A DNA stretch of 64,000 bases from Chloroflexi bacterium bin125 (GTDB lineage: Bacteria > Chloroflexota > Dehalococcoidia > Bin125), in NCBI GenBank assembly GCA_002239025.1, contig MPNM01000004.1, positions 62,001 through 126,000 of the forward strand. The letters run 5' to 3'. How positions within the stretch are numbered: position 1 is the stretch's first letter; each line of letters opens with the position of its first letter. Shown here piece after piece: positions 8,622-59,852 of this stretch. A model generated the notes under the pieces. The model was not told the DNA's origin. It saw nothing but the letters and a program-made list of their open reading frames with translations, and did no database searches. The translations under genes were made by a program, and so were the position numbers.

Positions 8622-8658
8622 TTTCGCATACTCCAAATACATGTTCGATAAAACAAAT

Positions 8659-8682
8659 CGACATGCGCAAATGCGCATGTCG
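8659..8682. promoter_or_regulatory. 11-bp perfect palindrome upstream of the Fic gene
   Basis: CGACATGCGCA, two A residues, then TGCGCATGTCG: 11-bp arms with no mismatch. It lies 38-61 bp before the chosen Fic start, a normal operator position. The Fic protein has a C-terminal winged-helix-like segment, so autoregulation is plausible but unproven. Confidence 0.5.
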
Positions 8683-8714
8683 GGATACACGGATGATTGC
8701 GGTAATGCGTGCTC

Positions 8715-9923
8715 CTATGCCCTAGGCAGACCTAGCCCTCTTGTGGCGATGACGTTTCGCTGGACTTCTGAGGTTCCGCCTCGGATAGTGGCTGGGACCA
8801 TGCCGACGAAGTTTCTTGTGAACGTGCTCGCCGGAGGGGAATCGCTCCAGGTTTGGGCGTGCAGGCCGAAGACCTTGGTCGCGGTCAGCGCAAGTCTCTG
8901 ACTCAGCTCTGAGGCGAACAACTTCGCTGTGGAGGCCTCATAGTTTGGGACGAGTCCTGACGACTGCATCGAGATGATGCGGAAGCTGAATTGGTACAGC
9001 GTCTCGGTTTCCACCCAGCGATCAACGATTTCCTGACGCAGTTCAGGCGTGACTCGCTCTCGGGCGCCCTGGTCGTTGTTCTGGATGTGCGTGATCAACT
9101 GTCGGAGTTGTCGACGGGCGGCGACTGCGCCCCCGATGTTCGAGCGCTCGAAGTCGAGCAGCGTCATGCCGACGTACCAGCCGCGATTCAGCTCACCGAC
9201 GAGATTGCTGGCCGGGATTCGCACATCCTCGAAAAAGACCTCATTGAAGTAGTGGTCTCCGTTGATGTTGATCAGCGGTCGCACGGTGATGCCCGGCGTC
9301 TTGATGCTGTCAATCATGACAAAGGAGATACCGCGATGCTTGGGCGCGTCGGGATCGGTGCGGACCAGTGCGAACATCGCGTCGGCGGTGTGCGCGGCCG
9401 AAGTCCAGATCTTCTGCCCATTGATGATGAAGTCATCGCCATCACGCACGGCGCGGGTCGTGAGCGAGGCGAGGTCGGAGCCGGAGCCCGGCTCGCTGTA
9501 GCCCTGCGCCCAGGTCACTTCACCGTTGAGAATCGGCGGCAGGTACTGCTCCTTCTGCTCGTCCGAGCCGTGGACGATCAGGGTCGGTCCGAGCATGTTC
9601 ACGCCCGAGCCTCCGACGCCTGGAGCGCCCGACTCGGCCAGTTCCTGGTTGAAGATGAACTGTTCCATCGGCGAGAGACCGCCGCCGCCGTACTCGGACG
9701 GCCAGTGCGGCGCGACCCAGTGACGCTCGGCGAGCGCGGCGTGCCAGTCGACTGCGGCCGACAGCGCAAGCGGGTCATCCGACTTGCGGTCGTTTTCCCA
9801 AGCTCGTTCCGGCATCGCACCTCGAGCAGCGAAGTCGCGATAGCGCTGGGGCAAGCGCTGGCCGATCAGGGTCGCGACTTCGTCGCGGAAGGCGGCTTGT
9901 TCCGGTGTGTCTCGCCAATCCAC
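8715..9923 (-). CDS. Acyl-CoA dehydrogenase family protein
   Basis: 402 residues, the normal length. Visible family blocks are an N-terminal helical domain (WRDTPEQAAFRDEV), the FAD/substrate loop WAQGYSEPGSGSDLASL (about residues 140-156), the beta-domain IINGQKIWTSAAHTAD, and the C-terminal GGTSEVQRNVIATRGLGLP block. It removes two hydrogens from an acyl-CoA to give the enoyl-CoA, passing electrons to electron-transfer flavoprotein. The substrate is not determinable. It is the last gene before Fic in the minus-strand run and would pair functionally with the nearby CoA-transferase. Confidence 0.93.
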   Translation of the reverse strand: MDWRDTPEQAAFRDEVATLIGQRLPQRYRDFAARGAMPERAWENDRKSDDPLALSAAVDWHAALAERHWVAPHWPSEYGGGGLSPMEQFIFNQELAESGAPGVGGSGVNMLGPTLIVHGSDEQKEQYLPPILNGEVTWAQGYSEPGSGSDLASLTTRAVRDGDDFIINGQKIWTSAAHTADAMFALVRTDPDAPKHRGISFVMIDSIKTPGITVRPLININGDHYFNEVFFEDVRIPASNLVGELNRGWYVGMTLLDFERSNIGGAVAARRQLRQLITHIQNNDQGARERVTPELRQEIVDRWVETETLYQFSFRIISMQSSGLVPNYEASTAKLFASELSQRLALTATKVFGLHAQTWSDSPPASTFTRNFVGMVPATIRGGTSEVQRNVIATRGLGLPRA

Positions 9924-9988
9924 AGTCGCCTCCGCTCGTCTACTCAGGCTCGATCGAGTTAGCCCTAGAGGCCCAGTTAGAGACCTGG

Positions 9989-10639
9989 CTAGAGTCCTGG
10001 CACCGCAAGCGCGACTGCGGCCTGAATCTCGTCCAGCGTCCGGTTGACGCTCATCCCGATCAGGTCCATACGAGCGAGCTGCTCGACACGGGTTTCAACG
10101 CGCTCCAGGTACTCGCGTGGCAGCAGCAGTTCAAGCAAGCGGCTGGCTCGGGCGAGGCCGATCAGCGCGACGACGTCCGGCTCGGGGATCTCATCGGAAA
10201 GCAGCGTGTCGATCAACCGGCGCTGCACATCGCGCACAACCTGAGGGTCGGTCGGCGGGAACTTCTCCGACTTCAGCACGATCAATCGGCGGCCGGCCTC
10301 GCGGTGAATGATATTGCGATCGAGGAGGTCCTCGATCACCTGTTGTCGCAGCACGAGCGAGTAGCGTGCGATCTCAGAGATCCAGTACGAGATTGGCTGG
10401 TTGGGAGGACCAGAGTTGATCTGGTGCAGCACGCTATCGAGCAGCGGATTGCCGGTCGGGTCGGCGGAGATAATGAAGAGCCGATTGGGGTCAGTGTCGA
10501 TTCGGTTCAGGAATGACAAATCAAGCAAGGAAGCCCCGGCGATGGCGTAGTCCAGCCGCCCGTCGTACGGGCGGTCGAGCGCGCCGTCTTCGCCCAGGCC
10601 CAGCAGAACGATCTGATCGCTGATAGAGAGTTCGGGCAT
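9989..10639 (-). CDS. GPP34 (GOLPH3/Vps74-like) family protein
   Basis: 216 residues from the ATG at 10639, preceded by AAGGGG at 7 nt; an in-frame ATG at 10654 has no such site. The N-terminus ELSISDQIVLLGLGEDGALD then RLDYAIAGASLLDLSFL matches the bacterial GPP34 family, whose eukaryotic relative GOLPH3 binds phosphatidylinositol-4-phosphate at the Golgi. The role in bacteria is unknown; many actinobacterial genomes carry copies. It is mostly helical with no membrane segment. It sits between the dehydrogenase genes with gaps of about 65 and 120 bp, so co-transcription is uncertain. Confidence 0.85.
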   Translation of the reverse strand: MPELSISDQIVLLGLGEDGALDRPYDGRLDYAIAGASLLDLSFLNRIDTDPNRLFIISADPTGNPLLDSVLHQINSGPPNQPISYWISEIARYSLVLRQQVIEDLLDRNIIHREAGRRLIVLKSEKFPPTDPQVVRDVQRRLIDTLLSDEIPEPDVVALIGLARASRLLELLLPREYLERVETRVEQLARMDLIGMSVNRTLDEIQAAVALAVPGL

Positions 10640-13861: not shown

Positions 13862-15112
13862 CTAGCGGCTGCCCCGCAGGCGTGGGTCGAGGACATCGCG
13901 AAGGGCGTCGCCGAGGACGTTGAATCCGAACACCAGCGATGTCAGCGCCAGACCGGCCCAGAGCGAAGTCCAGGGCGAATAGACGATGAACTGGCGTCCG
14001 TCAGCGATCATTTTGCCCCAGGAGACATCCAACGTGCCCAGACCGAGGAAGCTCAGCGCCGCCTCGGCCAGGATGAACGCGCCAATGGTGATCGAGAAGA
14101 TCACGATCAGCGGCGCGAAGATGTTTGGCAGAATGTGAAAGCTCATGATTCTGGAAGAGGTGGCGCCAATGGTGCGGGCCGCCTCGACGTAGGGCATCTC
14201 ACGAATCTGGATCACGCTTCCGCGCACAATTCGATTGGTGGGCGCGATACCCAGCACTGACAGCGACAATGTCACCCAGAGCGCTGAAGGGTCGGTGATC
14301 GAGGCGATCAGCAACAGGAATGCGATAGGCGGGAAGCTCTGCACCGCGTCGAGGATTCGGTTGATGATCAGGTCGACAGACCCGCCAAGGGAACCGGAAA
14401 CCAATCCCGTCACCGTTCCGGCGGCAACACCAATCAGCGTGGCGAAGAATCCGATGTAGAGCGAGAGTCTCGCGCCTTCGGTCACGCGAGAGAAGAGATC
14501 GTGACCAGCCCGGTCCGTGCCGAACCAGTGCTTGCCGGACGGTCCCAGCAGCGACGCCGTGATCAAGGGATTGTCGGTTCCGGCAGCGAGCAATCGATCG
14601 TGGTCGGAGATCACACCGTCGTCAATCTCGATCTGTTGCTCCCGGACCAACCAGTCAATCAGGTCACCCGCTTCAACCCGTCCAAGCGCGTACTCGACCA
14701 TCTCATGCTCGACGCCGACATTCGACGCCGCCTCTTCGAAGATGTCGGGATCGCTGACAATGGCTCGCAGTTCGGAAGCTGATACATCTGCGCTCAGTCC
14801 ATCAAGGGCATTGGCGAGTTTGTCATCGGCATAGCTGACCGATGCGATTTCGAACACGTCTCGAGAGTCGTATCGCCCGATTCCCAGCCAACCACCATCA
14901 TCACCGACAGTGCCGACCGCGATGACACTCCAGAGCACCACAATCACGACGCCAGCGGCGCCGAGACGCTTGGACGACATGAACTGCCTGAAACCGACCA
15001 GCCAGCGCCGCAGGCCGGTCGCCTGGTCAACCTGCAACCCCTCGGCTGCGGCGAATTCGTCAAGCTGCTGACCCTGGTCTGGTTGCTGACTAGCGCCTGG
15101 TTGCTGACTCAT
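13862..15112 (-). CDS. Peptide/nickel-type ABC transporter permease, DppC-like (copy 1)
   Basis: 416 residues against about 300 for ordinary DppC/OppC. After a glutamine-rich N-terminus (QQPGASQQPDQGQQ) and the first membrane helix (GVVIVVLWSVIAVGTVG, about 54-70) there is an extra segment of about 105 residues (81-185) before the usual LGPSGKHWFGTDRAGHDLFS block. The rest is canonical, including the coupling loop FVEAARxxGA-type EAARTIGATSSRIMSFHILP. By DppC topology the insertion should lie outside the membrane. It follows the DppB-like gene after 7 bp. Partner ATPases are not in the window. Confidence 0.93.
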   Translation of the reverse strand: MSQQPGASQQPDQGQQLDEFAAAEGLQVDQATGLRRWLVGFRQFMSSKRLGAAGVVIVVLWSVIAVGTVGDDGGWLGIGRYDSRDVFEIASVSYADDKLANALDGLSADVSASELRAIVSDPDIFEEAASNVGVEHEMVEYALGRVEAGDLIDWLVREQQIEIDDGVISDHDRLLAAGTDNPLITASLLGPSGKHWFGTDRAGHDLFSRVTEGARLSLYIGFFATLIGVAAGTVTGLVSGSLGGSVDLIINRILDAVQSFPPIAFLLLIASITDPSALWVTLSLSVLGIAPTNRIVRGSVIQIREMPYVEAARTIGATSSRIMSFHILPNIFAPLIVIFSITIGAFILAEAALSFLGLGTLDVSWGKMIADGRQFIVYSPWTSLWAGLALTSLVFGFNVLGDALRDVLDPRLRGSR

Positions 15113-15119: not shown

Positions 15120-16601
15120 CTAGTCGTAGCGGATGCGCGGATCGATCAGCGCATAGCTAATGTCGATCACGATGTTGACGATGATCACGAAGAGTGCCAG
15201 GAAGAACACCGCAGTCTGAATGACCGGGATATCAGCCTGGTAGAGCCGTTGAATCAGCATCAGGCCGATTCCGGGAATATTGAAGAGAATTTCGAGGATG
15301 ATGTTGCCGCCAACCAACGCCGCGAGCTGTAGGCCGAACACGCTCAGGACCGGCACCAGTGCGTTGCGCAGGGCGTGCCGGCGAATGACCGAGCGTTCGC
15401 GCAATCCCTTGGACCAGGCGGTACGTACGTAGTCTTGCCGCAACACCTCGAGTAGCTCGGAGCGGGTGATCCGCATCAGACCGGCCCCGGCGGCGATGCC
15501 GCCCGCGACAGCGGGGATCGTGTAGAGCGCAAAGAACCCATCAACAGAGGTGAAAATGCTCCTCGCGCTCTCCTCGGTCAGTGGAATCGACCATAAGCCG
15601 CCCTCAAAAATGCCTCCAGGCGAGACGACAAAGATCATCATCGTTGCGATCCAGAAGGCTGGTGCGGCCAGCGCCAGAATCGCGAACCCACGCAGCGCGT
15701 AGTCGACCCATTGGTCTTGGCGCATTGCCGAAAGAATGCCAACCGGCAACGCCACCACGACGGCCACGATCAACGCGTACACGGTGAGATGCAGCGAACG
15801 CGGCAGGGAACGCAGGAAAATGTCCATCGACGGTTCGTTGGTCTGGAACGAGGGCCGGAACTGGAAGCGGATCGTGTCCCAGAGATATTCGAGGTATTGC
15901 GTGCCAAGCGGCTTGTCGATGCCGAGCTGGTTCTTGATGCTGGCCTCGGTGATTTCCCGAGTCGGCGAGATGAACTTCTGACCAGGCAACAACGGAGTGT
16001 CAATTGTCAGCGAGCCATCTTCGTTAGCCGGGGTGCCCTCTTCGTTGACGTTCATGTAGTCGTCGGGACCGACTCGGTTGACCACCGCGAGCTCGCGCAG
16101 TGTGGTGCTTTCACGCAACGTCAGCGTGACGCCCGCGGGCGCGAACAGCTCACCAGCGAAGGTGCCGAACTCAACATCGGGATTGCGTTCCACGAGCAGC
16201 GCAACGCCGTCCTCTGTGTTTTCCGGCAGCGCCAACCGCGCCGTCCTTGAGATCGAGGACAAGAGTTGGCCATCGATAATGACGATCGTTGAACCAGGTC
16301 GCAACTCGGAGTCGGCATCCAGGCTTCGGTTGTTGGCGACGATATCCGCGACCCCGACGCCGTACTTCAACGCAAGAGTGTCCAGCGTGTCCCCGCCGAC
16401 GACGCGATGTAGCGTCCGTTCGACTTCGACCTCGCCGACAATCTCAGCCTCGATCTTGGTCGCGCCCGACGCTTCGAGATTGGCGAGCTTGATCGTGACG
16501 TAGTCACCAGGAAGTGCGTTGAGCACCAGAAACAGAATGGAGATCACGAGCCACAGCGTCGGGATCACCAATATGATGCGCCGGATCAGGTACTTCTGCA
16601 T
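15120..16601 (-). CDS. Peptide/nickel-type ABC transporter permease, DppB-like, with LysM domain (copy 1)
   Basis: 493 residues from MQKYLIRR at 16601; an upstream in-frame ATG at 16667 adds residues unlike family N-termini. Ordinary DppB is about 310-340. Between membrane helix 1 (IILVIPTLWLVISILFLVL) and the conserved LGIDKPLGTQYLEYL there is an insertion (about 42-220). It holds a clear LysM domain at 65-110 (HRVVGGDTLDTLALKYGVG ... LRPGSTIVI) and a degenerate second one at about 160-212. The remainder is a standard permease with EVLRQDYVRTAWSKGLRERSV as the ATPase-coupling loop. The insertion should face the outside. It is co-oriented with the binding protein upstream and DppC downstream. 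Confidence 0.93.
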   Translation of the reverse strand: MQKYLIRRIILVIPTLWLVISILFLVLNALPGDYVTIKLANLEASGATKIEAEIVGEVEVERTLHRVVGGDTLDTLALKYGVGVADIVANNRSLDADSELRPGSTIVIIDGQLLSSISRTARLALPENTEDGVALLVERNPDVEFGTFAGELFAPAGVTLTLRESTTLRELAVVNRVGPDDYMNVNEEGTPANEDGSLTIDTPLLPGQKFISPTREITEASIKNQLGIDKPLGTQYLEYLWDTIRFQFRPSFQTNEPSMDIFLRSLPRSLHLTVYALIVAVVVALPVGILSAMRQDQWVDYALRGFAILALAAPAFWIATMMIFVVSPGGIFEGGLWSIPLTEESARSIFTSVDGFFALYTIPAVAGGIAAGAGLMRITRSELLEVLRQDYVRTAWSKGLRERSVIRRHALRNALVPVLSVFGLQLAALVGGNIILEILFNIPGIGLMLIQRLYQADIPVIQTAVFFLALFVIIVNIVIDISYALIDPRIRYD

Positions 16602-16636
16602 TGCCTGCTCTCGCGCCGTAGGCGCGTTTGAGCGCT

Positions 16637-16661
16637 TGCTCCCCCCGCGAAGGAGGGAGCA
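16637..16661 (-). terminator. Hairpin between binding-protein and permease genes
   Basis: TGCTCCC and GGGAGCA arms 11 nt apart lie in the 87-bp gap after the first binding-protein stop. There is no U-tract on the minus strand, so partial attenuation or mRNA 3'-end protection is more likely than full termination. This could raise binding-protein output over permease output. Confidence 0.4.
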
Positions 16662-16688
16662 GAGCACTCATCGAATGCTGGATCCGGT

Positions 16689-18701
16689 CTAGGCCGGGAA
16701 GTCCGGGTGGCTGCTGTCCATCCAGACGGTGTCCCAGTTGTGCGAATCGTGCGCGAACTGCCAGGTGTCGTCGGGTCGATTGACGTACGGCCACCAGATG
16801 GTTGGCGCGATGCCATTCATGACACCAAACCAGCCGAAGATGCCTTCAAGGCCGTGTTCCTCGTCAACGCCGAGGCCAATCCGCTGCACCTCAAGCGCCA
16901 TCTCGCGGCGCTGCTCGGTGTCGAGCGTGACTGACATCGTGTCGACGATGTCTTCAACCGGCTGGTAGTTGTACTGCGTCAGGTTCGACGCGCCACCAAC
17001 CTTCAGCGACAGGGTGAACTGCGCCGTCGGGTCGAGGTCGGCCGGCGGGTTGGTCCAGGTCGGCGCCCTGCCGGGGAACGTCTTGTTGTCGTAGCGGTCC
17101 TGCATCACGGTGTAGGGCTGGATGTCCAGCTCGACGTTGATGCCGGTCGCCTCGGCGTACATGTTGCGCGTGGTCTCGGTGATACCCGGGTAGGTCTGCT
17201 CCCAGAGGTCGGGGATGTAGATCGTCACCGTGCGGTCCTTGTCGAAGCCGGAGGCATCGATCAGTTCGCGGCAGAGCGCGATGTCGGCATCGCGGTCGAG
17301 GCGGAAGCCCGGAACCGTGCGCAGCTCCTCGGGCGGAACGGTCCAGGCTTGGCTGAACCACGGACAGAAGTGGGTCGCCGACGGCTTGGCCGCGCCCAGG
17401 TAGACGGCATCGATCAACAGGTCGCGGTCAACCGCAACCTGCATCGCGTAGGCGAAACGACGGTCGAGGTATGGGTTCCCCAGCCCGTCCGAGCCTTCCC
17501 AGCCGGGCTCATAGGTTCCCATCACGGTGACGATCGTGAAGCCGAATGCGCCTTCCTCGACCGGGTGGTCGGGGAAGTCGCCGGTCAGCTCTTCGACCTG
17601 CACCGAAGACAGCGGGAACCCGCCGATGTCGATGCCCTTGCCGCGGTATGCCGCGTCGACAGCGGTCGCATCGGTCAGGTTGACGAACTCAACGGCGTCC
17701 GGGTAGGGAAGCTGCTGGCCGTCGGGACCATCCTTCCAGTAGTTGGAGTTGCGTTCCAGGTAAATGCCGATATCCGGGTCGAAGGTTTGCGGGATGAACG
17801 GGCCCGTACCGGAGGAGAGTTCGACGTTTGCGGTTTCGTCGCGCCAGCGAGTACCGAACTCCTGGATGCCCTCGGGCGAGGTGATCCAGGAGAAGGGCCG
17901 CAGGATGGTGCCACCGAGATAGGTCGCGTCGGGACCGGCAGTCTTAGCGACGAAGGTCGTCTCGTCGACCGCTTCGTGCGAGGCGGTCTTCTTGAAGGCG
18001 TCCTGGCCGCGGAATCGCGCGTCGGGGTTGCCTTCAGCGTCGAGCGCGGCGATCTGGCGGTCGAAGTTGATCACAATGTCGCTGGCGGTGACATCACGAC
18101 CACCCTCGGTCGGGTATTGGTCCCAGTAGCGGGCGCCTCGGTCGACATTGAAGATGTAGGTCTCGGCATCGGGCGTCTCGGGCAGAGATGTGATGTCCGC
18201 TTCCATGATCCCGCCCTCTTTCGAGGCCCAGCGGATCATGTAGTTCATGTAGAACCCCATCCAGTACTGGGTGGGGCCGAAGACGCCGCGGTGCGGGTCG
18301 AAGAAATCGTGCGTAGCGGCAGGAGTTGAGAAGCGCAGCGTGCCGCCGTACGAGCGAAGGTCGCCGGCCTGCTGTTGCTGCTGCATCGCCTGCTGTTGCT
18401 GCTGCTCCTGCTGATCGGCGGCGGCAGCGGTCTGCTCGGCTTGCTGCTGCTGATCCTGCTGCTGCATGGCCTGTTGCTGGTGCTGGGCCTGCTGCTGTTG
18501 CTGCATGGCCTCTTGCTGGTCCTGCTGTTGGGCCTGCTGACGTGAAGCAGCCGCTGGCTGCTGAGCATCGTCGTCATCGCCACCACAACCGACCAGAGCC
18601 AGGCCGGCTGCGCCTACGCCAGCCCTTCCTGAAGCTCGCAACAGATCTCTGCGGCTGAGCCGATTGCGCTTCATGCGCTGCCAATAGTTACGTTCGGTCA
18701 T
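16689..18701 (-). CDS. ABC transporter substrate-binding lipoprotein, family 5 type (SBP1)
   Basis: 670 residues from MTERNYWQ at 18701 (AAGGAG 8 nt upstream); the longer upstream frame has no support. The N-terminus has a Tat-like motif S16-R-R-D-L-L-R and a hydrophobic stretch ending LALVGC39, a lipobox, so it should be exported and lipid-anchored. Residues 46-112 are a glutamine/alanine/methionine linker encoded by CAG/CAA runs (18366-18566). The binding domain starts GGTLRFSTPAATHDFFDPHR and ends HPDFPA. The module order is SBP1-DppB1-DppC1. Ligand is probably an oligopeptide-like solute, but this is not shown. Confidence 0.93.
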   Translation of the reverse strand: MTERNYWQRMKRNRLSRRDLLRASGRAGVGAAGLALVGCGGDDDDAQQPAAASRQQAQQQDQQEAMQQQQQAQHQQQAMQQQDQQQQAEQTAAAADQQEQQQQQAMQQQQQAGDLRSYGGTLRFSTPAATHDFFDPHRGVFGPTQYWMGFYMNYMIRWASKEGGIMEADITSLPETPDAETYIFNVDRGARYWDQYPTEGGRDVTASDIVINFDRQIAALDAEGNPDARFRGQDAFKKTASHEAVDETTFVAKTAGPDATYLGGTILRPFSWITSPEGIQEFGTRWRDETANVELSSGTGPFIPQTFDPDIGIYLERNSNYWKDGPDGQQLPYPDAVEFVNLTDATAVDAAYRGKGIDIGGFPLSSVQVEELTGDFPDHPVEEGAFGFTIVTVMGTYEPGWEGSDGLGNPYLDRRFAYAMQVAVDRDLLIDAVYLGAAKPSATHFCPWFSQAWTVPPEELRTVPGFRLDRDADIALCRELIDASGFDKDRTVTIYIPDLWEQTYPGITETTRNMYAEATGINVELDIQPYTVMQDRYDNKTFPGRAPTWTNPPADLDPTAQFTLSLKVGGASNLTQYNYQPVEDIVDTMSVTLDTEQRREMALEVQRIGLGVDEEHGLEGIFGWFGVMNGIAPTIWWPYVNRPDDTWQFAHDSHNWDTVWMDSSHPDFPA

Positions 18702-18751
18702 GATTTCTCGCTCCTTCAGAAGCGCGACGTACGCGCGTCGATGGTTGGGAA

Positions 18752-18757
18752 AGTGTA
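18752..18757 (-). promoter_or_regulatory. Putative -10 element for SBP1
   Basis: On the minus strand TACACTTTCCCAA matches TACACTCTGCCAA (SBP2) and TACACTCTCCCAA (SBP3), at 51 bp from the start codon. A matching -35 is less clear here than for SBP2 and SBP3. Confidence 0.35.
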
Positions 18758-18806
18758 GCGCACAACGCGTCCAGTGGAGTACTCGCCAAGGGATGCCGTT
18801 GTTTCG

Positions 18807-18902
18807 GTGATACCCGCGCTTGGCGCGAGAATCACGACGAATCGAATACCCATGAAACTGCTGAGCGAACCGAGATTGCCGCGCCGGAGCGCGGCAATGA
18901 CG
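18807..18902. repeat. Two palindromic repeats (families B and A)
   Basis: 18807-18836 is a degenerate GTGATACCCGCGC...GCGCGAGAATCACG copy. 18871-18902 is a good CGAGATTGCCGCG...CGCGGCAATGACG copy. Both match elements elsewhere in the window and lie in the 254-bp gap between SBP1 and the DppC-like gene at 18956. Confidence 0.65.
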
Positions 18903-18923
18903 AGGGTGCAGTGATCGTCCTGA

Positions 18924-18949
18924 ACCCGCTGGAGCGCCGCCCAGCGGGT
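18924..18949 (-). terminator. Hairpin just after the DppC2 gene
   Basis: ACCCGCTGG and CCAGCGGGT form a perfect 9-bp stem with an 8-nt loop, 7 bp past the stop codon on the minus strand. No U-tract follows, so strength as an intrinsic terminator is uncertain. It fits the end of the second transporter module. Confidence 0.45.
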
Positions 18950-18955
18950 GTCCGG

Positions 18956-20194
18956 CTAGCGGCTGCCCCGCAGTCTCGGGTCGAAGACATCGCGCAGCGC
19001 ATCGCCGAGGACATTGAAGCCAAACACCAGACTGGTCAGCGCCAGGCCGGCGAACAACGAGGTCCATGGCGACTGCACGATGAACTGGCGACCGTCGGCG
19101 ATCATCTTGCCCCAGGAGACATCGAGCGTGCCCAGTCCGAGGAAGCTGAGCGCGGCCTCGGCGAGGATGAATGCGCCGATGGTGATCGAGAAGATCACGA
19201 TCAACGGCGCGACGATGTTAGGAAGAATGTGCATCAGCATGATTCGGGCGTTCGTCGCGCCGAGCGTCCGGGCGGCCTCGACAAAGGGCATCTCGCGCAG
19301 CGCGATTACCGCGCCACGGACAATCCGCTGGACGGGCCCCACAGCCAGCACCGAGAGCGCCAACGTCACCCACAGCGCAGATGGCTCCGTCACCGAGCGC
19401 AACAACAGCAACAGCACGATCGGTGGGAAGGAGAGCAGCGCGTCCATCAGACGGTTGATCGCCAGGTCAATGTTGCCGCCCAGGGCGCCAGAAATGAGTC
19501 CGATGGCTGTACCGGCGACCACACCGATCAGCGTGGCAAAGAAGCCAATGTAGAGCGACAACCGCGCGCCTTCAGTGACCCGCGAGAAGAGGTCGTGTCC
19601 CGCGCGGTCGGTGCCGAACCAGTGCTTGCCCGAGGGCCCCTGGAGCGACGCCGTTGTCAGCGGCGTGTTCGTGCCGGTCGCGAGCAAGTCATCGACATCG
19701 TTGATCGTGCCGTCAACGATCTCAATCTGGGCTGGGTCGAACTCCGCTAGGTGAGTCAGCAGCGTTCCGCTTGCGATCAGCCCTTCGGCGTACTCCAGCA
19801 TGTCGTCGAGTACGCCGGACTGCTCAGCCAGGTCGCCATAGACCTCGGGCTGCAGCAGAAGTTCGCGAAGCTCGCTGTCGGAGATATCAGCCGATTTGCC
19901 GTCGAGTTCGTTGGCGATCCTGTCGTCGGCGAAGTTGGCGTTGGCGACCTTGAAGACATCCTGCGAGTCGTAACGACCCAGGCCCAACCAACCGCCGCCG
20001 GAACCGACCGTCCCCACGGCGATGATCGACCAGACCACGACCAGCGTCAACCCGGCGGCGCCCAGGGGCTTGGTCCGGAAAAATGACCCCAACGCGCCGC
20101 CAAGCAGCTGTAGAAAGCTGCGTTCCTCAACGCGCAGGCCCTGTGCCTGCGCGAACTCCTCGAGTTGCGTCTGAGACTGTCGGTCATCACTCAT
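18956..20194 (-). CDS. Peptide/nickel-type ABC transporter permease, DppC-like (copy 2)
   Basis: 412 residues, a close paralog of the gene at 13862. The same plan is seen: a Q-rich N-terminal segment, helix 1 (LVVVWSIIAVGTVG, about 51-64), an insertion at about 75-182 starting RYDSQDVFKVANANFADD, then the shared LQGPSGKHWFGTDRAGHDLF block and a canonical permease core with EAARTLGATNARIMLMHILP. The insertion is the most divergent part between the copies while the core is almost identical. It lies 36 bp after the DppB-like gene. The membrane subunit pair would need ATPases encoded elsewhere. Confidence 0.93.
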   Translation of the reverse strand: MSDDRQSQTQLEEFAQAQGLRVEERSFLQLLGGALGSFFRTKPLGAAGLTLVVVWSIIAVGTVGSGGGWLGLGRYDSQDVFKVANANFADDRIANELDGKSADISDSELRELLLQPEVYGDLAEQSGVLDDMLEYAEGLIASGTLLTHLAEFDPAQIEIVDGTINDVDDLLATGTNTPLTTASLQGPSGKHWFGTDRAGHDLFSRVTEGARLSLYIGFFATLIGVVAGTAIGLISGALGGNIDLAINRLMDALLSFPPIVLLLLLRSVTEPSALWVTLALSVLAVGPVQRIVRGAVIALREMPFVEAARTLGATNARIMLMHILPNIVAPLIVIFSITIGAFILAEAALSFLGLGTLDVSWGKMIADGRQFIVQSPWTSLFAGLALTSLVFGFNVLGDALRDVFDPRLRGSR

Positions 20195-20230
20195 GGTGCC
20201 CCTCCCCGGTCAGCCGGTGCAGTCACCCGG

Positions 20231-21859
20231 TTAGGCGAAGCGAATACGCGGATCGATGACCGCGTATGAAATGTCGATGATGATGTTCACCACGATGATG
20301 AACAGCGCGAAGAAGAAGACCATCGTTTGTACGACAGGCAGGTCGGCCTGGTTGATGCGCTGAATCAGCAGCAAGCCGATGCCGGGAATGTTGAACAGCA
20401 GCTCGAGGATGATGTTGCCGCCAACCAGGGCCGCCACCTGCAAGCCGAGCACGCTCATCACATTGACCAGGGCGTTGCGCATCGCGTGTCGCCGGATCAC
20501 GGTCCGCTCGCGCAGACCTTTCGACCAGGCGGTGCGGACGTAGTCCTGGCGCAGCACTTCGAGCAACTCGGACCGCGTAATCCGCATCAGACCGGCACCG
20601 GCGGCAAGTCCGCCCGCGACGGCAGGAATCGTGTACAACGCCAGCGCTCCGGTGAACGATGTGAACACCGATCGCGCCTCCTCTGAGGTCAGCGGGATCG
20701 ACCAGATCCCGCTATCCGAGATGCCGCCCGGCGTAACCACGAAGATCATCATGGTCGCGATCCAGAAGGAGGGCGCCGCCAGCGCGAGGATGGCAAACCC
20801 TCGCAGCGCATAGTCCAGCGGGCGATCCTGACGCATGGCCGAGAGGATGCCGACCGGCAACGCGATGGTCAGCGCCACGATCAATGCGTACACGTTGAGA
20901 TGCAACGTACGTGGTAATGCTCGGAGGAAGATGTCCAGCGACCCCTCCTGGGTCTGGAACGACGGACGGAATTTCAACCGCACCGTCTCCCAGAGGAAGT
21001 CGATGTACTGGGTGCCGAGCCCCTTATCGATGCCCAGGCGATGCCTGATGTTGGCCTCGGTAATCTTCGTGGTCGGCGTGACGATCCGGTCGGATGGGAC
21101 GTGGATCGCGACTCCGGCTTCTAGTGGCTCAGCCGGATCAATGCCCCGGTTCGCTGTAGTCATCTCTTCGAGATCGCGACCGTAGGCGACGGCAATCTGC
21201 TCCAGCGTGTCACCCTCGTCGGTGATCACCAGCGCCGTTGGTAGCAGTTGCGTATCGGCCGATAGATTTCCGTCGGGATTGCTAGCGCTACCGGTTGGAT
21301 TCACCGCCAGGATGTCGCTCGCATCAATGCGATTGACGTGCGCTAACTCATCGAGCGTCAGGCTGTCGCGGATGACCAGAATCGACCCCGCCTCGGCATA
21401 CGGCTTGCCCTGGTACAGCGGGAAGTTGACATCGGGGTTGCGGTCGATCAGGAGTTGCACTCCTGTTTCGACTTCTTCAGGCAAAGCAATGCTCTGTCCA
21501 ATTGAAATCGCCTCGAGTAACTGGCCGGGAATCACCGTGATTCTCGTACCCGGTCGCAGCTCACCGGAGGTGTCCAGATCAGGATTCTCCGCAAGCAGCG
21601 TCGACACCGACGTGTTGTTACTGGTTGCGATCTTCTCCAGCGTGTCGCCCGAAATCACGCGATGCGTCGTGTCGGTGACTTCGATATAGCCAACGATCTC
21701 CGATTCACGCTGCTCCGCGCCCTGATTCTCCAGGTTCGAGAGTTTCCGTGTAACAAAGTCGCCAGGCAGCGCGCGCAGCGCCAGGAACAGGAGTGAGATC
21801 ACCAACCACAGGGTCGGGATCACAAGGATCAGGCGTTGGATGAGGTATCGCTGCATCAC
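20231..21859 (-). CDS. Peptide/nickel-type ABC transporter permease, DppB-like, with LysM repeats (copy 2)
   Basis: 542 residues, larger than copy 1 by about 49. The insertion after helix 1 (about 43-268) carries LysM at 66-111 (HRVISGDTLEKIATSNNTS), a degenerate unit at about 160-208 (LVIRDSLTLDELAHVNRIDA) and another clear LysM at 211-256 (VITDEGDTLEQIAVAYGRDL), the last absent from copy 1. After it come LGIDKGLGTQYIDFLWETV and a standard DppB core with EVLRQDYVRTAWSKGLRERT. LysM binds N-acetylglucosamine-containing polymers, so the loop may dock to cell-wall or envelope glycans. The start could be either of two adjacent Met codons. Confidence 0.93.
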   Translation of the reverse strand: MMQRYLIQRLILVIPTLWLVISLLFLALRALPGDFVTRKLSNLENQGAEQRESEIVGYIEVTDTTHRVISGDTLEKIATSNNTSVSTLLAENPDLDTSGELRPGTRITVIPGQLLEAISIGQSIALPEEVETGVQLLIDRNPDVNFPLYQGKPYAEAGSILVIRDSLTLDELAHVNRIDASDILAVNPTGSASNPDGNLSADTQLLPTALVITDEGDTLEQIAVAYGRDLEEMTTANRGIDPAEPLEAGVAIHVPSDRIVTPTTKITEANIRHRLGIDKGLGTQYIDFLWETVRLKFRPSFQTQEGSLDIFLRALPRTLHLNVYALIVALTIALPVGILSAMRQDRPLDYALRGFAILALAAPSFWIATMMIFVVTPGGISDSGIWSIPLTSEEARSVFTSFTGALALYTIPAVAGGLAAGAGLMRITRSELLEVLRQDYVRTAWSKGLRERTVIRRHAMRNALVNVMSVLGLQVAALVGGNIILELLFNIPGIGLLLIQRINQADLPVVQTMVFFFALFIIVVNIIIDISYAVIDPRIRFA

Positions 21860-21912: not shown

Positions 21913-23931
21913 TCAGGCCGGGTAATCCGGGTGGTTGACATCGATCCAGGACTCGTCGTACCGATGGCTGGCGTGGGCGAATTGGAGCGTGTCGTCGCCG
22001 TGATTGACGAACGGCCACCAGAGCACCGGCGAGATACCGTTCATCACGCCTGGGCTGTTGGCAACGCCATCGAGTCCGTAGTCGGGGTGCGTGCCGAGCA
22101 GGATGCGCTGAGCTTCCTGCGCCAACGACTGACGCTCCTCCTGGTCCAGGGTGACCGTCATCGTTTCGGCGATTTCGGTCATTCGGGGATGTTCGTACGC
22201 AAGGTTGTTCGTGCTGCCGCCAGGGATGTAATTGTTGTTGTACGAGGTGGTTGGATCGAGGTCCGAGGGCGGGTTGGTCCACTGCGGGCCCTGTCCCGGG
22301 TAGGTGCCCTCGATCCAGCGCTGGAGAATGACGGTGTAGGGCTGCACGTCGAAGCTGACTTCGAGGTCGAGCGCTTCGCGATACATCCCGACTTCGGTCT
22401 CGAGGATGCCGGGGTAGGTGCCTTCCCAGATATCGGGTGCGATGAGTTGCAGCCCACGACTCCGGTCGTAGCCCGATGCGTCAAACAGCGCCCGAGCTTC
22501 GGCGATGTCAACTGCCCGGTCGGGCCGGAAGCCGGGCGTTTGCAGCAGTTCGTCTTCCGGGATAGCCCAATAGGCGTTGTACCAGGGCGTCTCGCCCATG
22601 CCGGAGGGCTTTCCGGATCCGAGATAGACCGTGTCGATCATCAGATATCGGTCAACGGCGACATGCATCGCTTGCGTGAAGCGGCGGTCGATCCAGGGAT
22701 TGCCCAGGCCGTCTTCACCTGGATAGTCGGCATTGAAGTTCGCGCCACCGGTAATGATCGTGAAACCGAAGGCCACCGTGCCTTGCCCGTGATCGGGGAA
22801 GTCGTTCAGAATGCCCTCCGCCTGGAGCGACGACAACGGGAAGCGGCCGTTGAAGATCTCCTTGCTGCGATACGCGGCCTCAACCGCGGTTGCATCCGTG
22901 ATGTTGGACAGCGTGACCGAGTCGTAGTACGGCAACGGCTGCCCGTCGATGCCCATCTTCCAGTAGTTCTCGTTACGGACCATGTCGATCCCAATGTCAG
23001 GATCGAAGCGCTGCGGAATGAACATGCCGGTGCCCGAGGAGAGTTCGACATTGCCGGCTTCGTCACGCCAGCGGTCGCCAAACTCATTGATCGCTTCCGG
23101 GCTCGTGACCCAACTGAAGGGCCGCAGCGGCACGCCCATCCAGGTCGCATCGGGGCCAGCAGTTTTGGCAACGAAGGTCGTCTCGTCGGGCACATCCATG
23201 GATGCCGTCTTGCGGAAGGACGAAGCGCCAAGGAATGTGCCGTCCTCGGCTCCGTTCGCATCAACGGCTTCGATCTGACGTTGGAAATTGACACGAATGT
23301 CTTCGGCGTCAACGAGTCGACCGCCTTCTGTCGGGTACAGGTCCCAGTACCGCGCGCCCTGGTCAATGCGGAAGATGTAGGTCTCTGCGTCTGGAACCTC
23401 TGGGAGCGAGGCGACGTCCGCCTCCATGATGCCCTGTTCCTTGTTGCGCCAGCGGATGAGGTAGTTCATGTAGAACCCCATCCAGAACTGAGTCGGCCCG
23501 AACACGGCCCGGTGCGGATCGAAGTAGTCGTGCGTTGCCGCGGGCGTTGAGAATCGCAGGTCCCCGCCACGCACTACCTGGCTGACCGCAGCCTGTTGGG
23601 CTTGCTGATCGTCGGCATCTTCGGCTGTTTGCTCTTGCTGGTCAGCCTGCTGTGCGGTCTGGTCAGCAGATTGGTCCTGCTGGCCCTGCTGCATCGCCTG
23701 TTGTTGCTGCGACTGCATCGACTGCTGCTGTTGCTGCTCGCCCTGCTGCATCGCCTGTTGTTGCTGCTGCTGTTGTTGCTGGACCTGCGCGACGCTGTCG
23801 TCGTCATCGCCACCGCAACCGACCAGGGCCAACCCGGCCGCGCCTACTCCAGCACGCCCCGAAGCCCGCAACAAATCTCGTCGACTCATGCGATTGCGAC
23901 GGATTCGTTTCCAGTAGTTGCGTTCGGTCAT
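21913..23931 (-). CDS. ABC transporter substrate-binding lipoprotein, family 5 type (SBP2)
   Basis: 672 residues starting MTERNYWKRIRRNRMSRRDL; AAGGAG precedes the ATG by about 8 nt. Tat-like S16-R-R-D-L-L, lipobox Cys at 39, then four Asp and a Q-rich linker at about 49-120 (23572-23787). The binding domain opens GGDLRFSTPAATHDYFDPHR and ends DVNHPDYPA. It belongs with SBP1, SBP5 and SBP6 by the GFYMN-x-x-IRW block. It is the first gene of module 2 (SBP2-DppB2-DppC2) and has a candidate promoter at 23974-24004. Ligand unknown. Confidence 0.93.
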   Translation of the reverse strand: MTERNYWKRIRRNRMSRRDLLRASGRAGVGAAGLALVGCGGDDDDSVAQVQQQQQQQQQAMQQGEQQQQQSMQSQQQQAMQQGQQDQSADQTAQQADQQEQTAEDADDQQAQQAAVSQVVRGGDLRFSTPAATHDYFDPHRAVFGPTQFWMGFYMNYLIRWRNKEQGIMEADVASLPEVPDAETYIFRIDQGARYWDLYPTEGGRLVDAEDIRVNFQRQIEAVDANGAEDGTFLGASSFRKTASMDVPDETTFVAKTAGPDATWMGVPLRPFSWVTSPEAINEFGDRWRDEAGNVELSSGTGMFIPQRFDPDIGIDMVRNENYWKMGIDGQPLPYYDSVTLSNITDATAVEAAYRSKEIFNGRFPLSSLQAEGILNDFPDHGQGTVAFGFTIITGGANFNADYPGEDGLGNPWIDRRFTQAMHVAVDRYLMIDTVYLGSGKPSGMGETPWYNAYWAIPEDELLQTPGFRPDRAVDIAEARALFDASGYDRSRGLQLIAPDIWEGTYPGILETEVGMYREALDLEVSFDVQPYTVILQRWIEGTYPGQGPQWTNPPSDLDPTTSYNNNYIPGGSTNNLAYEHPRMTEIAETMTVTLDQEERQSLAQEAQRILLGTHPDYGLDGVANSPGVMNGISPVLWWPFVNHGDDTLQFAHASHRYDESWIDVNHPDYPA

Positions 23932-24118: not shown

Positions 24119-26170
24119 CTACGCGTCGTAGTCCTCGTGGGCGGTGTCGAGCCACAGCTCCTCGACGATCTTGTGGCCCTGGTGGGCGAACTGGTAGCCG
24201 TCCGGGATCACGTGGTACCAGGGCCAGGCCGCCTCGTTCGAGACCGGGTTCATCACGCCCAGACCCGGCGAGAGCGATTCCCAACCGTAGTCGGGGTGGA
24301 TGCCAAGCTGCAGTTGCACCATCTCGCGCGAGAGCTCACCCTTCGCCTCGAAGTCGAGCGTGACCTTCATCTCTTCGGCGATCTCGGTGACGCGTGGGTT
24401 CTCATAGCTGTAGAAGTTCGCCGATCCGCCCGGCACGCGACCGTTGAGCCAGTAGCTGGTCGGGTCGAGGTCGGAGGGCGGGTTCGTCCAGCAGGGAATC
24501 TGTCCGGTGGACGTGCCGTCGACCAGGCGCTGGAGCAGGATCGTGTACGGGTCGATGCTGATCTCGATGCCAACACCGAGCGCCGACTCGTACATGTTCT
24601 TTGCGGTTTCGACAATGCCCGGGTAGCGCTGCTCCCAGACGTCAGGGGCGAAGAGGTAGATCGAGCGGCCGGAGTCGCGGAATCCGCTGGCGTCCATCAG
24701 CTCGTTTGCTTCGCGGATATCAGCCTCGTGGTCGGCGCGGAATCCTGGGATCTCCGTCATCTCTTCCTGGCTCGGTGACCAGAAAGTCGAGAACCAGGGA
24801 ATCTCTTCCAGGACCGACGGCTTGGCCGAGCCCAGGTAGACCGTGTCGATCATCAGATAGCGGTCTGTCGCCAGGTGGAAGGCCGCGGCCACGCGACGGT
24901 CGAGCCAGGGATTGCCTTCACCGTCCTCGCCGGGCCAGTCGGGGTTGTAGTTGGTGCGGATCATGATCGTGAATCCGCCGCCGACGGTGTTGCGCTGCAT
25001 CTGCGGGAAGTCGTTGAGCAGCGATTCGACGCGACTGATGTTGAGCCAGGCGCCGTCGAGCTCCTTGGAACGCACGGCAGTTTCGATCGCCGTCTCGTCG
25101 AACAGGTTGTAGTACTCCATCCGGTCGACGTAGGGCAGTTGCTGACCCCAGGCGTCTTCCTTCCAGTAGTCCGGGTTGCGATTGGCGATGAATACCTCGG
25201 TCGGCTCGTAGCTCTCCGCGATGAACGGACCCGAGCCGGCCACACGCAAGGTGGTCGGGTCGTCGCGCCAGACATCCGATTCGGTACCCCACTCGCGGAT
25301 GCCTTCCGGCGCCGCCATCCAACCGAAGGGCCGCAGGAAGGTCGCCGAGAGATAGGTCGAGTCGACGCCGTCCGATGTCGTGCGCAGAGTGCGCTCATCC
25401 ACCGCTTCGACGCTGGCGACCTTACGCCAACTTGAGAGGCCGAGGAACGAGCCATCTTCGGCGCCGGTCGAGTCGACACCGGCAGTATTGCGGTCGACGT
25501 TGACCACGATGTCCTCAGCGGTAATGTTGCGTCCGCCTTCAGTCGGATAAGCGTCGTGCCAGCGCGCGGCCGGATTGATGTTGAAAATGTAGGTCTCCGC
25601 GTCGGGATTCTCCGGCAAGGAGGCGATGTCCGCCTCCATCTCCGACTTCTCCTTGTTCTTCCAACGGATCAGGTTGTTGTAGAGCATCGAGTGCATGAAC
25701 TGGGTCGGTCCGAACACCCCGCGGTGCGGGTCCCAGTAGTCGTGCGTCTCGATCGTCGAGGCGCGCCGCATGACGCCGCCGTGGACGGGGATGCCCGTCT
25801 CCGGAACCGCGGCGGCCGCCTGTTGCTGTTGCTGTTGCTGCGCGTCGGCGACCGCCTGCTGCTCCTGCTGATCGGCCTGCTGCGCTGCCTGGTCTGCAGC
25901 CTGTTCCTGTTGCTCTTGCTGCATGGCCTGCTGCTGTTGTTGCTGCATGGCCTGTTGCTGCATGGCCTGCTGCTGCATCGCTTGTTGCTGCTGTTGCTGC
26001 TGCTGGGCGACTTGCGAGACGCTGTCGTCATCGTCATCGCCACAGCCAACCAGGGCCAGACCAGCCGCTCCCACACCAGCGCGTCCCGACGCGCGCAAGA
26101 GCGCACGCCTGCTCACGCGGTTGCGCTTCATCCGTTGCCAGTAGTTCCTACCGCTGTCTCGCTCGGTCAT
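24119..26170 (-). CDS. ABC transporter substrate-binding lipoprotein, family 5 type (SBP3)
   Basis: 683 residues. The N-terminus has a four-residue insertion relative to its paralogs (MTERDSGRNYWQRMKRNRVS), then R21-R22 of the Tat-like motif and lipobox Cys43. The Q-rich linker spans about 56-121 (25808-26005) with clear AMQQQ repeat units. The binding domain reads STIETHDYWDPHRGVFGPTQ and, with SBP4, forms a subgroup differing from the others (LIRWKNKE, ARWHDAYPTEGG). It ends DTAHEDYDA. No permease is adjacent. It has its own promoter-like element at 26213-26243. Ligand unknown. Confidence 0.92.
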   Translation of the reverse strand: MTERDSGRNYWQRMKRNRVSRRALLRASGRAGVGAAGLALVGCGDDDDDSVSQVAQQQQQQQQAMQQQAMQQQAMQQQQQQAMQQEQQEQAADQAAQQADQQEQQAVADAQQQQQQQAAAAVPETGIPVHGGVMRRASTIETHDYWDPHRGVFGPTQFMHSMLYNNLIRWKNKEKSEMEADIASLPENPDAETYIFNINPAARWHDAYPTEGGRNITAEDIVVNVDRNTAGVDSTGAEDGSFLGLSSWRKVASVEAVDERTLRTTSDGVDSTYLSATFLRPFGWMAAPEGIREWGTESDVWRDDPTTLRVAGSGPFIAESYEPTEVFIANRNPDYWKEDAWGQQLPYVDRMEYYNLFDETAIETAVRSKELDGAWLNISRVESLLNDFPQMQRNTVGGGFTIMIRTNYNPDWPGEDGEGNPWLDRRVAAAFHLATDRYLMIDTVYLGSAKPSVLEEIPWFSTFWSPSQEEMTEIPGFRADHEADIREANELMDASGFRDSGRSIYLFAPDVWEQRYPGIVETAKNMYESALGVGIEISIDPYTILLQRLVDGTSTGQIPCWTNPPSDLDPTSYWLNGRVPGGSANFYSYENPRVTEIAEEMKVTLDFEAKGELSREMVQLQLGIHPDYGWESLSPGLGVMNPVSNEAAWPWYHVIPDGYQFAHQGHKIVEELWLDTAHEDYDA

Positions 26171-26347: not shown

Positions 26348-28366
26348 CTAGGCCGGATACTCCGGGTGGTCCGTGTCCAGCCAGGTGCTGAAGTGGTTGT
26401 GTCCCGCGTGCGCGAACTGATAGGCATCGGGATTCGGATGGTAGTACGGCCATCCAAGGTCGTTGTTGATGGGATTCATCACACCGATTGAGGGCGAGAT
26501 GCCGTCCCAACCGTATTCAGGATGGACGCCCATCATGATCTGCACGACTTCGTCTGCCATGATCTTCTTTTCTTCGAGATCGAGCGTGACCTTCATCGTC
26601 TCGGCAATCTCGGTCACGCGCGGATGCTCGTAGTGGTAGAGGTTGGATGAACCGCCCGGCACGCGACCGTTCAGCCAGGAACTGGTCGGGTCGAGGTCCG
26701 AGGGAGGATTCGTCCAGCTCGGGCCGTCACCTGGATAGGTGCCTTCAACAAGCCGCTGCAAGATTACGGTGTAGGGCTGGAGATCGATGTTGACCGTCAG
26801 ACCCAGGGCATTTTCGTACATGCCCTTGATCGTCTCAACGATTCCCGGGTAGCGCTGTTCCCATACGTCCGGTTCAAGGATGTAGAGCTCACGGCCCGTG
26901 TCGCGGAATCCAGTCGCATCAACCAGGTCGTTGGCGAGCTTGATGTCCGCATCGTGGTCCGGGTTGTAGCCCGGCCAGGTAATCAGCTCGTCTTCCGTGG
27001 GCGCCCAGAAGGCCGAGAACCAGGGCGTCTCCGGCAGAGCCGAGGGCTTGGCCGACCCGAGATACACCGCGTCGATCATCAAGTAGCGGTCTGTGGCTGC
27101 GTGGAATGCGGCCCACATCCGGCGGTCAATCCAGGGATTGCCGAGCCCGTCTTCGCCGGGCCAATCGGCGTTGAAGTTGCTGCGGCACTGAATGGTGAAG
27201 CCGCCCGCCGTCGTCCGTTTGACGAGCTCTGGGAAGTCGCTCTCCAGCGCCTGGACGATCGAGATGTCCAGATTGACCGCGTCAAGCTCCTTGGTCCGCA
27301 TGGCCGTGTCGAGCGCCGTCTGCTCAAACAACTCGATGTAGTCGAAGCCGTCGAGATAAGGCAACTGTTGGCCCCAGGCGTCGTATTTCCAGTAGTCGGG
27401 GTTGCGGCGAACCACCAATCGGTCGGTTGGATCGAAGGACTCGGCAATGAACGGGCCCGAGCCTGCTACGCGCAGCACGGTCTGTTCATCGCGCCAAACA
27501 TCGGACTGGTAGCCCCACTCGTCGATGCCCTCGGGAGCCGCAATCCAGCCAAATGGGTTGAGCACCGAGGCCGACAGGAATGTCGAGTCTGTTCCATCCG
27601 ACTTGAGCGTGATCGTACGCTCGTCAATCACGTCCCGAGAGGCGATCTTTCGCCAACTGGACGAGGAAAGGAAGGTTGAATCCTCCGACCCGGTCGAGTC
27701 GAAGGCGTTGACCTGTCGTTCAATGTTGTAGTCGATGTCGTTGGCGGTCACTTCGCGACCGCCTTCGGTTGGGTACTTGTCGTGCCAGCGCGCGCCGTCG
27801 ACGACGGAGAAGATGTACGTCTCGCCGTCGGGAATCTCCGGCAACTCGGCGAGGTCGGACGCCATGATCGCCTGTTCCTTGTTGGCCCAGCGAATCAGGT
27901 AGTTGTAGACCCAGCCATGCATGAACTGGGTCGGTCCAAACACTCCGCGATGTGGATCCCAGTAGTCGTGCGTGCTGATTGTGGAGCCAAGTCGGAGCGT
28001 GCCTCCATACTTGGGGACTTCGCCGCTGGCGACGGCCTGTTGCTGCTCTTCCTCCTGCTGCTCAGCCGGCGTCGCTTCCTGTTGCTCAGCCTGTTGGGCC
28101 TGCTGGGCCGCCGACTGTTCCTGTTGCTCTTGTTGAGCCTGCTGCATAGCCTGCTGCTGCTGTTGCTGCGCAGACTGCTGCTGCATTGCCTGTTGCTGCT
28201 GTTGCTGCTGCTGTGGGGCCTGCGAAACACTGTCGTCATCGTCGTCGCCGCAGCCAACCAGAGCCAGACCAGCCGCGCCAACTCCTGCGCGTCCTGACGC
28301 CCTCAAGAGCGCGCGCCTGCTCATCTGCTTGCGTCGCATGCGCTGCCAGTAGTTGCGCTCTGCCAT
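26348..28366 (-). CDS. ABC transporter substrate-binding lipoprotein, family 5 type (SBP4)
   Basis: 672 residues starting MAERNYWQRMRRKQMSRRAL with a GGGGAGG ribosome site. Tat-like RR at 17-18, lipobox Cys39, Asp run, then a Q/E/A-rich linker at about 52-110 (28037-28213). The binding domain has STISTHDYWDPHRGVFGPTQ and WVYNYLIRWANKE, closest to SBP3. The C-terminus is DTDHPEYPA. It stands alone, with a terminator after it and a candidate promoter at 28411-28440. It may supply a second specificity to a shared permease pair. Ligand unknown. Confidence 0.92.
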   Translation of the reverse strand: MAERNYWQRMRRKQMSRRALLRASGRAGVGAAGLALVGCGDDDDDSVSQAPQQQQQQQQAMQQQSAQQQQQQAMQQAQQEQQEQSAAQQAQQAEQQEATPAEQQEEEQQQAVASGEVPKYGGTLRLGSTISTHDYWDPHRGVFGPTQFMHGWVYNYLIRWANKEQAIMASDLAELPEIPDGETYIFSVVDGARWHDKYPTEGGREVTANDIDYNIERQVNAFDSTGSEDSTFLSSSSWRKIASRDVIDERTITLKSDGTDSTFLSASVLNPFGWIAAPEGIDEWGYQSDVWRDEQTVLRVAGSGPFIAESFDPTDRLVVRRNPDYWKYDAWGQQLPYLDGFDYIELFEQTALDTAMRTKELDAVNLDISIVQALESDFPELVKRTTAGGFTIQCRSNFNADWPGEDGLGNPWIDRRMWAAFHAATDRYLMIDAVYLGSAKPSALPETPWFSAFWAPTEDELITWPGYNPDHDADIKLANDLVDATGFRDTGRELYILEPDVWEQRYPGIVETIKGMYENALGLTVNIDLQPYTVILQRLVEGTYPGDGPSWTNPPSDLDPTSSWLNGRVPGGSSNLYHYEHPRVTEIAETMKVTLDLEEKKIMADEVVQIMMGVHPEYGWDGISPSIGVMNPINNDLGWPYYHPNPDAYQFAHAGHNHFSTWLDTDHPEYPA

Positions 28367-32654: not shown

Positions 32655-32745
32655 GGGGTGCTCCAATCGGAAGTTGCGCGAGTATAAGCATTCTGATGGA
32701 AACTCACTCGACATGTCTGTCATCCAGGAGAGATAGGCTGAACCC

Positions 32746-54130: not shown

Positions 54131-54178
54131 CTGTTTCCGAGGGCTCCTATCGCCGAAGACCTTTGAAGAAACTCGCCT

Positions 54179-54328
54179 TCTCCCCCCTTGCGGGGGAGAT
54201 GCCGAAAGCCTGCCCCGGGCTTGACCCGGGGGCAGAGGGGGGGATCCCTGCCTGTTGGCCCTATCTGGTCGTCGTCAGCCGCCCCCCCTCTGTCACTCCG
54301 TGACATCTCCCCCCACAAGGGGGGGAGA
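54179..54328. repeat. Composite palindromic repeat (family C, two facing arms)
   Basis: The left arm CTCCCCCCTTGCGGGGGAG with a second hairpin at GCCCCGGGCTTGACCCGGGG faces the right arm CTGTCACTCCGTGACATCTC then CCCCCACAAGGGGGG. This is the most complete copy. It occupies most of the 342-bp gap between the sulfatase genes, whose only other recognisable content is the sulfatase 2 leader at 54424. Confidence 0.75.
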
Positions 54329-54423
54329 AAGGAATCGGTCGCTTCAAATGAGCTCTCGGCCAGCCTCTCGAAGCAGCGGCCAAGAGCGTCCACTTCCCAA
54401 ACTTGGGACACGACAGGGGAACA

Positions 54424-54446
54424 GATCGCCTATCTTGCCACTCGAT
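54424..54446 (+). promoter_or_regulatory. Conserved leader of sulfatase gene 2
   Basis: GATCGCCTATCTTGCCACTC then GAT matches the block before sulfatase 1. TATCTT at 54431-54436 is the -10 candidate. Confidence 0.45.
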
Positions 54447-54472
54447 CTACGACCGAGGGATTGGTGATTGTT

Positions 54473-59691: not shown

Positions 59692-59806
59692 GTTGGTCTC
59701 CTTGAACTGTGTGTTCCTTAGTTGGTCGTCCCCAGTCATCATCCGGGGATGTTCACCCTCAGTGATTGCGGCACGTCTCTCGTTCGAGCCGAATGCAAGG
59801 GAGCGG

Positions 59807-59852
59807 GACCCCCTCAGACTTCGGCAGCTCCCCCTGCAAAGGGGGAGCGGGG
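59807..59852. repeat. Dispersed palindromic repeat (family C), reverse orientation
   Basis: GACCCCCTCAGACTTCGGCA followed by GCTCCCCCTGCAAAGGGGGAGC, the reverse complement of the copy at 34116-34156 with few changes. It lies in the gap between the two amidohydrolase genes. Confidence 0.7.

Follow-up and report, generated by a model that had tools for sequence, protein, structure and literature searches.

The window, that is, the whole 64,000-nucleotide stretch of DNA analysed here from Chloroflexi bacterium bin125, carries two minus-strand genes for DppB-type ABC permeases, designated B1 and B2, each with LysM units in one of its loops. B2 (20231..21856, minus) encodes a protein of 541 aa whose array comprises four LysM units, and matches BPD_transp_1 (PF00528) at 130.4 bits and LysM (PF01476) at 62.9 bits; B1 (15120..16601, minus), with 493 aa counted from a conserved ATG and a three-unit array, matches the two families at 133.6 and 34.4 bits, respectively, so that PF00528 is above its gathering score (26.4) in both. 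A longer B1 reading frame starts with GTG at 16667, which is probably not the true start, because all orthologues begin at the position equivalent to the ATG at 16601. In the alignment with E. coli DppB, the cytoplasmic EAA coupling loop is intact (RITRSELLEVLRQDYVRTAWSKGL against RMTRSSMLEVLGEDYIRTARAKGL in the E. coli protein). None of the NCBIfam equivalogs (DppB, OppB, NikB, Opp2B and others) was matched. Opp2B came closest, its scores of 243.7 and 231.7 bits staying below the cut-off of 350, and judged by these profiles B1 and B2 belong to the DppB class but to no named subtype.

The gene cluster pairs each of these permeases with a DppC permease and an SBP_bac_5 solute-binding protein (SBP). 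The DppC-type partners, recognized by PF00528 and alignment, lie at 18956..20194 (minus, partner of B2) and 13862..15112 (minus, partner of B1), and both have a helical insertion, about 110 residues long, that separates TM1 from TM2. One SBP_bac_5 lipoprotein with an RR signal, a lipobox Cys and a Gln-rich linker is encoded between both permease pairs (16689..18707, minus; PF00496, 114.9 bits), another directly upstream of B2 (21913..23931, minus; PF00496, 96.3 bits), and four further SBP lipoproteins in tandem at 24119-26170, 26348-28366, 28474-30483 and 30618-32747 (minus). All six same-strand genes between 16689 and 32747 show twin-arginine-type signals, a lipobox cysteine and then long glutamine-rich linkers; two are confirmed by Pfam, and the other four were assigned by eye from similarity and from this signal and linker layout. 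An SBP gene of one relative (L084:5661-7814) contains a glycine run and X derived from N, which is probably an assembly fault. No ATPase genes adjoin the permeases at the locus. The genome encodes more than 20 DppB-like genes versus three oligo_HPY ATPases, suggesting that one ATPase pair may be common to many permeases. Two of these oligo_HPY ATPase genes are found close together elsewhere in the genome (G000 contig C12, about 195950-197441, L122), upstream of a lepA-like gene and without adjacent permeases. Elsewhere in the window, tandem paralogue pairs of two sulfatase-like and two amidohydrolase-like genes, assigned by eye, occupy 51815-56791 and 57961-61619.

E. coli DppABCDF (8z1y) and M. 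tuberculosis OppABCD resemble this system in PF00528, TM1, TM2-TM6, the EAA coupling loop, the scoop helices alpha-1 and alpha-2, the DppC partner and the SBP_bac_5 lipoproteins. Here, however, three to four LysM units replace the short scoop loop, the DppC insertion is large, and adjacent ATPase genes are missing. TM1 and scoop helix alpha-1 of B2 (residues 1-46, ...PGDFVTRKLSNLENQG; 21719..21856, minus; model helices 2-29 and 34-44) align to E. coli DppB with DppB 2-35 corresponding to B2 3-36, and scoop helix alpha-2 and TM2-TM6 with the intact EAA loop (20234..21067, minus; PF00528) with DppB 50-337 corresponding to B2 269-541, while between these two blocks E. coli DppB contributes just 14 residues. 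The periplasmic scoop motif of E. coli DppB comprises residues 32-62, the loop residues E41 and R42 enter the DppA cleft, and the TM1-TM2 region is periplasmic (PMC12136057). The spacing from PGD to LGxDKP is 184-243 residues in LysM permeases, compared with 24-29 in those ordinary DppBs of this genome in which both motifs were locatable. On the alignment, the LysM array is thereby inserted after TM1 in the SBP-contacting scoop motif and begins no more than about 20 residues after TM1 ends. It is predicted to be extracytoplasmic, since TM1 is N-in by homology to DppB, and a cytoplasmic placement is ruled out by the same homology to a protein of known topology. An earlier note on this DNA had assigned the units to an external loop after the first membrane helix, which is borne out by homology to E. 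coli DppB and can be narrowed to the scoop that contacts the SBP.

LysM is a small domain that usually binds cell-wall or chitin-like sugars. Against the PF01476 gathering score of 20.9 bits, one unit in B1 (unit A, E 2.2e-8) and two stretches in B2 (units A and D, E 2.7e-17) are above threshold, which upholds the claim of LysM domains inside both permeases, and the same three sites were among the 21 LysM matches of a whole-genome PF01476 scan. Unit A spans residues 65-108 in both proteins (21533..21664 in B2 and 16278..16409 in B1, minus), and unit D, which is absent from B1, spans residues 207-255 of B2 (21092..21238, minus; Pfam stretch 21095-21217). The limits proposed for the clear units in the earlier note were thus only a few residues off. 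Two further units alone stay below the PF01476 gathering score: unit B (B2 residues 111-157, 21386..21526; B1 residues 109-157, 16131..16277; minus), the most degenerate of the array, with a segment inserted between its helices in B2, and the divergent unit C (B2 residues 158-206, 21239..21385; B1 residues 158-213, 15963..16130; minus), which carries a long conserved alpha2-beta2 loop with N186...N193-x-D195-G196-x-L198 in B2.

Each permease unit was compared by HHalign with 21 LysMs that the genome encodes outside the permeases. Probabilities of 98.5%, 47% and 97.5% were obtained for units A, B and D, respectively, and unit C gave 92% in its form without D and 24% in the B2 form, which was truncated ahead of the last strand; three control segments taken from these permeases gave 0.1-2.2%. 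The degenerate unit that had been suspected at about 160-210 is therefore genuine. B1 unit B was aligned to its B2 counterpart, and unit B is clearer in the relative L049, where the 8-residue insertion between the helices is missing and a LysM HMM matches with an i-E of 0.0012. We structured B2 with AlphaFold2 (mean pLDDT 77), and the model contains four beta-alpha-alpha-beta units at block pLDDT values of about 80-90. Foldseek searches with this model returned E. coli DppB (8z1y, 1.3e-12) and, independently, LysM proteins, namely Ecp6 (4b8v, 5.1e-4), T. thermophilus NlpC/P60 LysMs (7.6e-3) and plant LysM receptor ectodomains (about 1e-2). The structure prediction that had been suggested as a check hence gave LysM-like units for the B2 insertion, and a beta-alpha-alpha-beta LysM fold is predicted for the array. 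Chance similarity to LysM is excluded by the Pfam cut-offs, the HHalign controls and the fold matches together. From the combined sequence comparisons and model, the insertion is a tandem LysM array throughout, with three units in B1 (A, B and C) and four in B2 (A, B, C and D); the units named in the earlier note are real, but its counts of two and three were each one short, unit B at about 111-157 having been missed.

The tandem beta-alpha-alpha-beta units resemble the LysM (PF01476/CBM50) modules of Ecp6 (4b8v) and T. thermophilus NlpC/P60 (4uz2), whose GDT...N...PG motif likewise occurs in units A and D and is mostly retained there across orthologues. In contrast to the usual LysM proteins, the array lies mid-permease rather than on a hydrolase or receptor, and its units B and C have diverged, the latter with its long conserved loop. 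As a large extracytoplasmic permease domain near the SBP, the array is also reminiscent of the P2 loop of MalF in the maltose importer. MalF P2, however, has a different fold, is located in a different permease loop and does not belong to a glycan-binding family, and no MalF P2-type fold was found in the insertion, which in the model adopts the LysM fold at the TM1-TM2 scoop. In GlnPQ and OpuA, too, ligand-binding modules form part of the permease chain, but these are whole solute-binding domains, whereas no SBP family matched the LysM insertion at E values up to 1.

A class-wide profile search found LysM permeases in 16 of the 393 genomes of the Dehalococcoidia class; all 16 belong to one family and represent three of its five genera. 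Outside that family, no match at 1e-10 was obtained among the 393 genomes, and other families in a 400-genome sample of the phylum gave TM1-only or weak partial matches only; a wide distribution of LysM-DppB is supported by neither search. One member of the genus (G005) and three further genomes of the family lack matches, some of which may be missing due to MAG incompleteness. An assembly or frame artefact is excluded, as the architecture is in frame in 16 genomes. Among the named genomes, the close relatives are Dehalococcoidia or Chloroflexi MAGs, and several bin names suggest an association with sponges. Two Bacteroidota-assigned MAGs encode DppBs with a large post-TM1 insertion that has no LysM and by eye is unrelated (L097:7227-8756 and L098:7182-8717), and the post-TM1 loop has therefore been enlarged more than once.

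In a tree of the transmembrane part, all LysM permeases form one clade (support 100/99), in which the g4 copy branches first, then B3, then B1 and B2. Unit D is a clean 48-residue addition, with a gap of that length in all non-B2 members of the alignment. Its gain probably postdates the B1/B2 duplication and is most simply placed in the B2 lineage of genus g1, because unit D is confined to the g1 B2 group and even the B2 of genus g2 lacks it. The LysM number thus differs between the paralogues, as the earlier note had stated, by exactly one, and alignment and tree point to a gain in one lineage. The B3 copies belong to a third pair, B3/C3, which follows B1/C1 in some relatives and does not occur in the window genome (L084:15859-17298; L085:15834-17276; L090:15896-17344; L092:11176-12447; L101, about 7550-10110, minus). 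B3 keeps a degenerate LysM insertion and has lost the cytoplasmic EAA coupling loop; in C3, as read in L101, the EAA loop is degraded and there is no Pfam match. Purifying selection still acts on B3 (three sequences, with a median dN/dS of 0.28), and B3/C3 is possibly an ABC permease pair that is no longer driven by an ATPase.

Every unit of the array is under purifying selection, with median dN/dS values of 0.10-0.21 in B1/B2, compared with 0.05-0.08 for the transmembrane part. The units evolve at roughly two to four times the rate of the latter, which, together with the degenerate units of the B3 copies, would be expected if the array were a structural relic that is carried along neutrally in an exposed loop. 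This reading is already disfavoured by the dN/dS values, by retention of the array in three of five genera, by all units being in frame and by the gain of one unit in B2, and we deem it very unlikely.

The main rival of an envelope-docking role is a purely protein-protein function, in which the array would form an enlarged scoop comparable to MalF P2 and recognize the SBP lipoproteins, with glycan binding lost. It is a serious one, because the loop that houses the array is the SBP-contacting scoop. The scoop contacts the SBP in E. coli (PMC12136057), six SBP genes adjoin the permeases, and a single Dpp permease served by several SBPs is a known case (PMC4206461). Residues invariant in all members, the EAA-less B3 copies included, are concentrated in unit C and the scoop helix. 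Besides, all LysM pairs examined, those of g4 and the degenerate C3 among them, have the DppC insertion of about 110 residues, which occupies the loop equivalent to that of the DppB array, while the DppC partner (L121) of L011, the nearest non-LysM DppB in the tree, is short (326 aa). In the model of the DppC partner of B2 (mean pLDDT 56 overall, insertion blocks mostly 70-88), the insertion is readable only as helical, and the significant matches in a fold search with this model were ABC permeases only. On the other hand, units A and D retain canonical LysM motifs, among them the loops of the glycan site, and these would be needless for pure protein contact, and unit A is absent only from L092, a B3 copy. 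On balance, we consider an exclusively SBP-docking array rather doubtful.

Peptidoglycan is available as a possible LysM ligand, because the genome contains a mur/dcw cluster (L119, G000:C65:30001-46000) with MurF, MurD, FtsW, MurC, MurB, Ddl, FtsQ and adjacent genes, identified from their position and sequence, because FtsW/RodA occurs in 20 of 20 genomes of the family, and because a 6xLysM-Peptidase_M23 protein, a hydrolase, is encoded. A peptidoglycan-less host is ruled out by the mur/dcw cluster, which occurs here in the same class as SAR202 and Dehalococcoides-type relatives, reported to be without peptidoglycan synthesis (PMC6306507, PMC10444878). In another member of the Chloroflexota, Litorilinea aerophila, LysM is fused to the inner-membrane protein PilO as a proposed peptidoglycan anchor; unlike the permeases described here, PilO-LysM is a type IV pilus/archaellum scaffold protein and not a transporter (PMC13319060).

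We tentatively favour, at somewhat less than an even chance, a scoop in which the array ties the importer mouth to the wall. At the channel mouth, next to where the SBP lipoproteins dock, the array would reach out into the envelope. Its better-kept units (A, and D in B2) would bind a GlcNAc-containing glycan, with the cell's own peptidoglycan as the prime candidate, and thereby keep the mouth of the importer at the wall, and the several SBPs might dock on an enlarged platform made up of unit C together with the helical insertion of DppC. Glycan docking is favoured because the LysM domains exceed the cut-off, match LysM folds and lie on the extracytoplasmic side exactly in the scoop, because the GDT and N...PG motifs are largely retained in A and D and every unit is under purifying selection, and because peptidoglycan is present, the 6xLysM-M23 protein uses LysM with it, and PilO-LysM is a proposed precedent (PMC13319060). 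Against it, many array-invariant residues lie in the divergent unit C and not in the canonical unit A, which fits protein contact better, and with an array some 20 residues from TM1 the tether may be too short if the wall stands well off the membrane. To our knowledge, moreover, LysM folds are not always glycan-binding. A glycan-sensing or glycan-tethered importer, in which LysM would couple the scoop to peptidoglycan or a host glycan and thereby position or gate uptake, is conceivable, though we are not inclined to expect it.

Alternatively, the array might capture substrate, so that GlcNAc-bearing solutes (muropeptides, chitooligosaccharides or glycopeptides) would become concentrated at the mouth of the channel for import. 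Importers of the SBP_bac_5/Dpp-Opp group are of the peptide-type class, and murein peptides are known substrates of Opp/Dpp-type systems; the location of the array at the channel entrance and the ligand class of LysM are also in line with this idea. Type I importers, however, take their solute via the SBP and not via the permease, and no muropeptide recycling genes were recognized beside the locus. We regard substrate capture as improbable.

The earlier note knew of no described transporter of this type, and our full-text search of the open-licence literature likewise retrieved no paper reporting LysM in an ABC permease; within that literature, the combination of a LysM array with a DppB-type importer was found described nowhere. 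If the array of B1 and B2 binds a wall or host glycan, they would be, as far as we found, the first ABC importer permeases with a glycan-binding module of their own, and this module would sit in exactly the loop that governs solute hand-over. Even if the array docks SBPs only, LysM would have been recruited as a permease-SBP interface. The former case would offer a testable example of importer positioning in an unusual bacterial envelope and would perhaps bear on the feeding of sponge-associated Chloroflexota.
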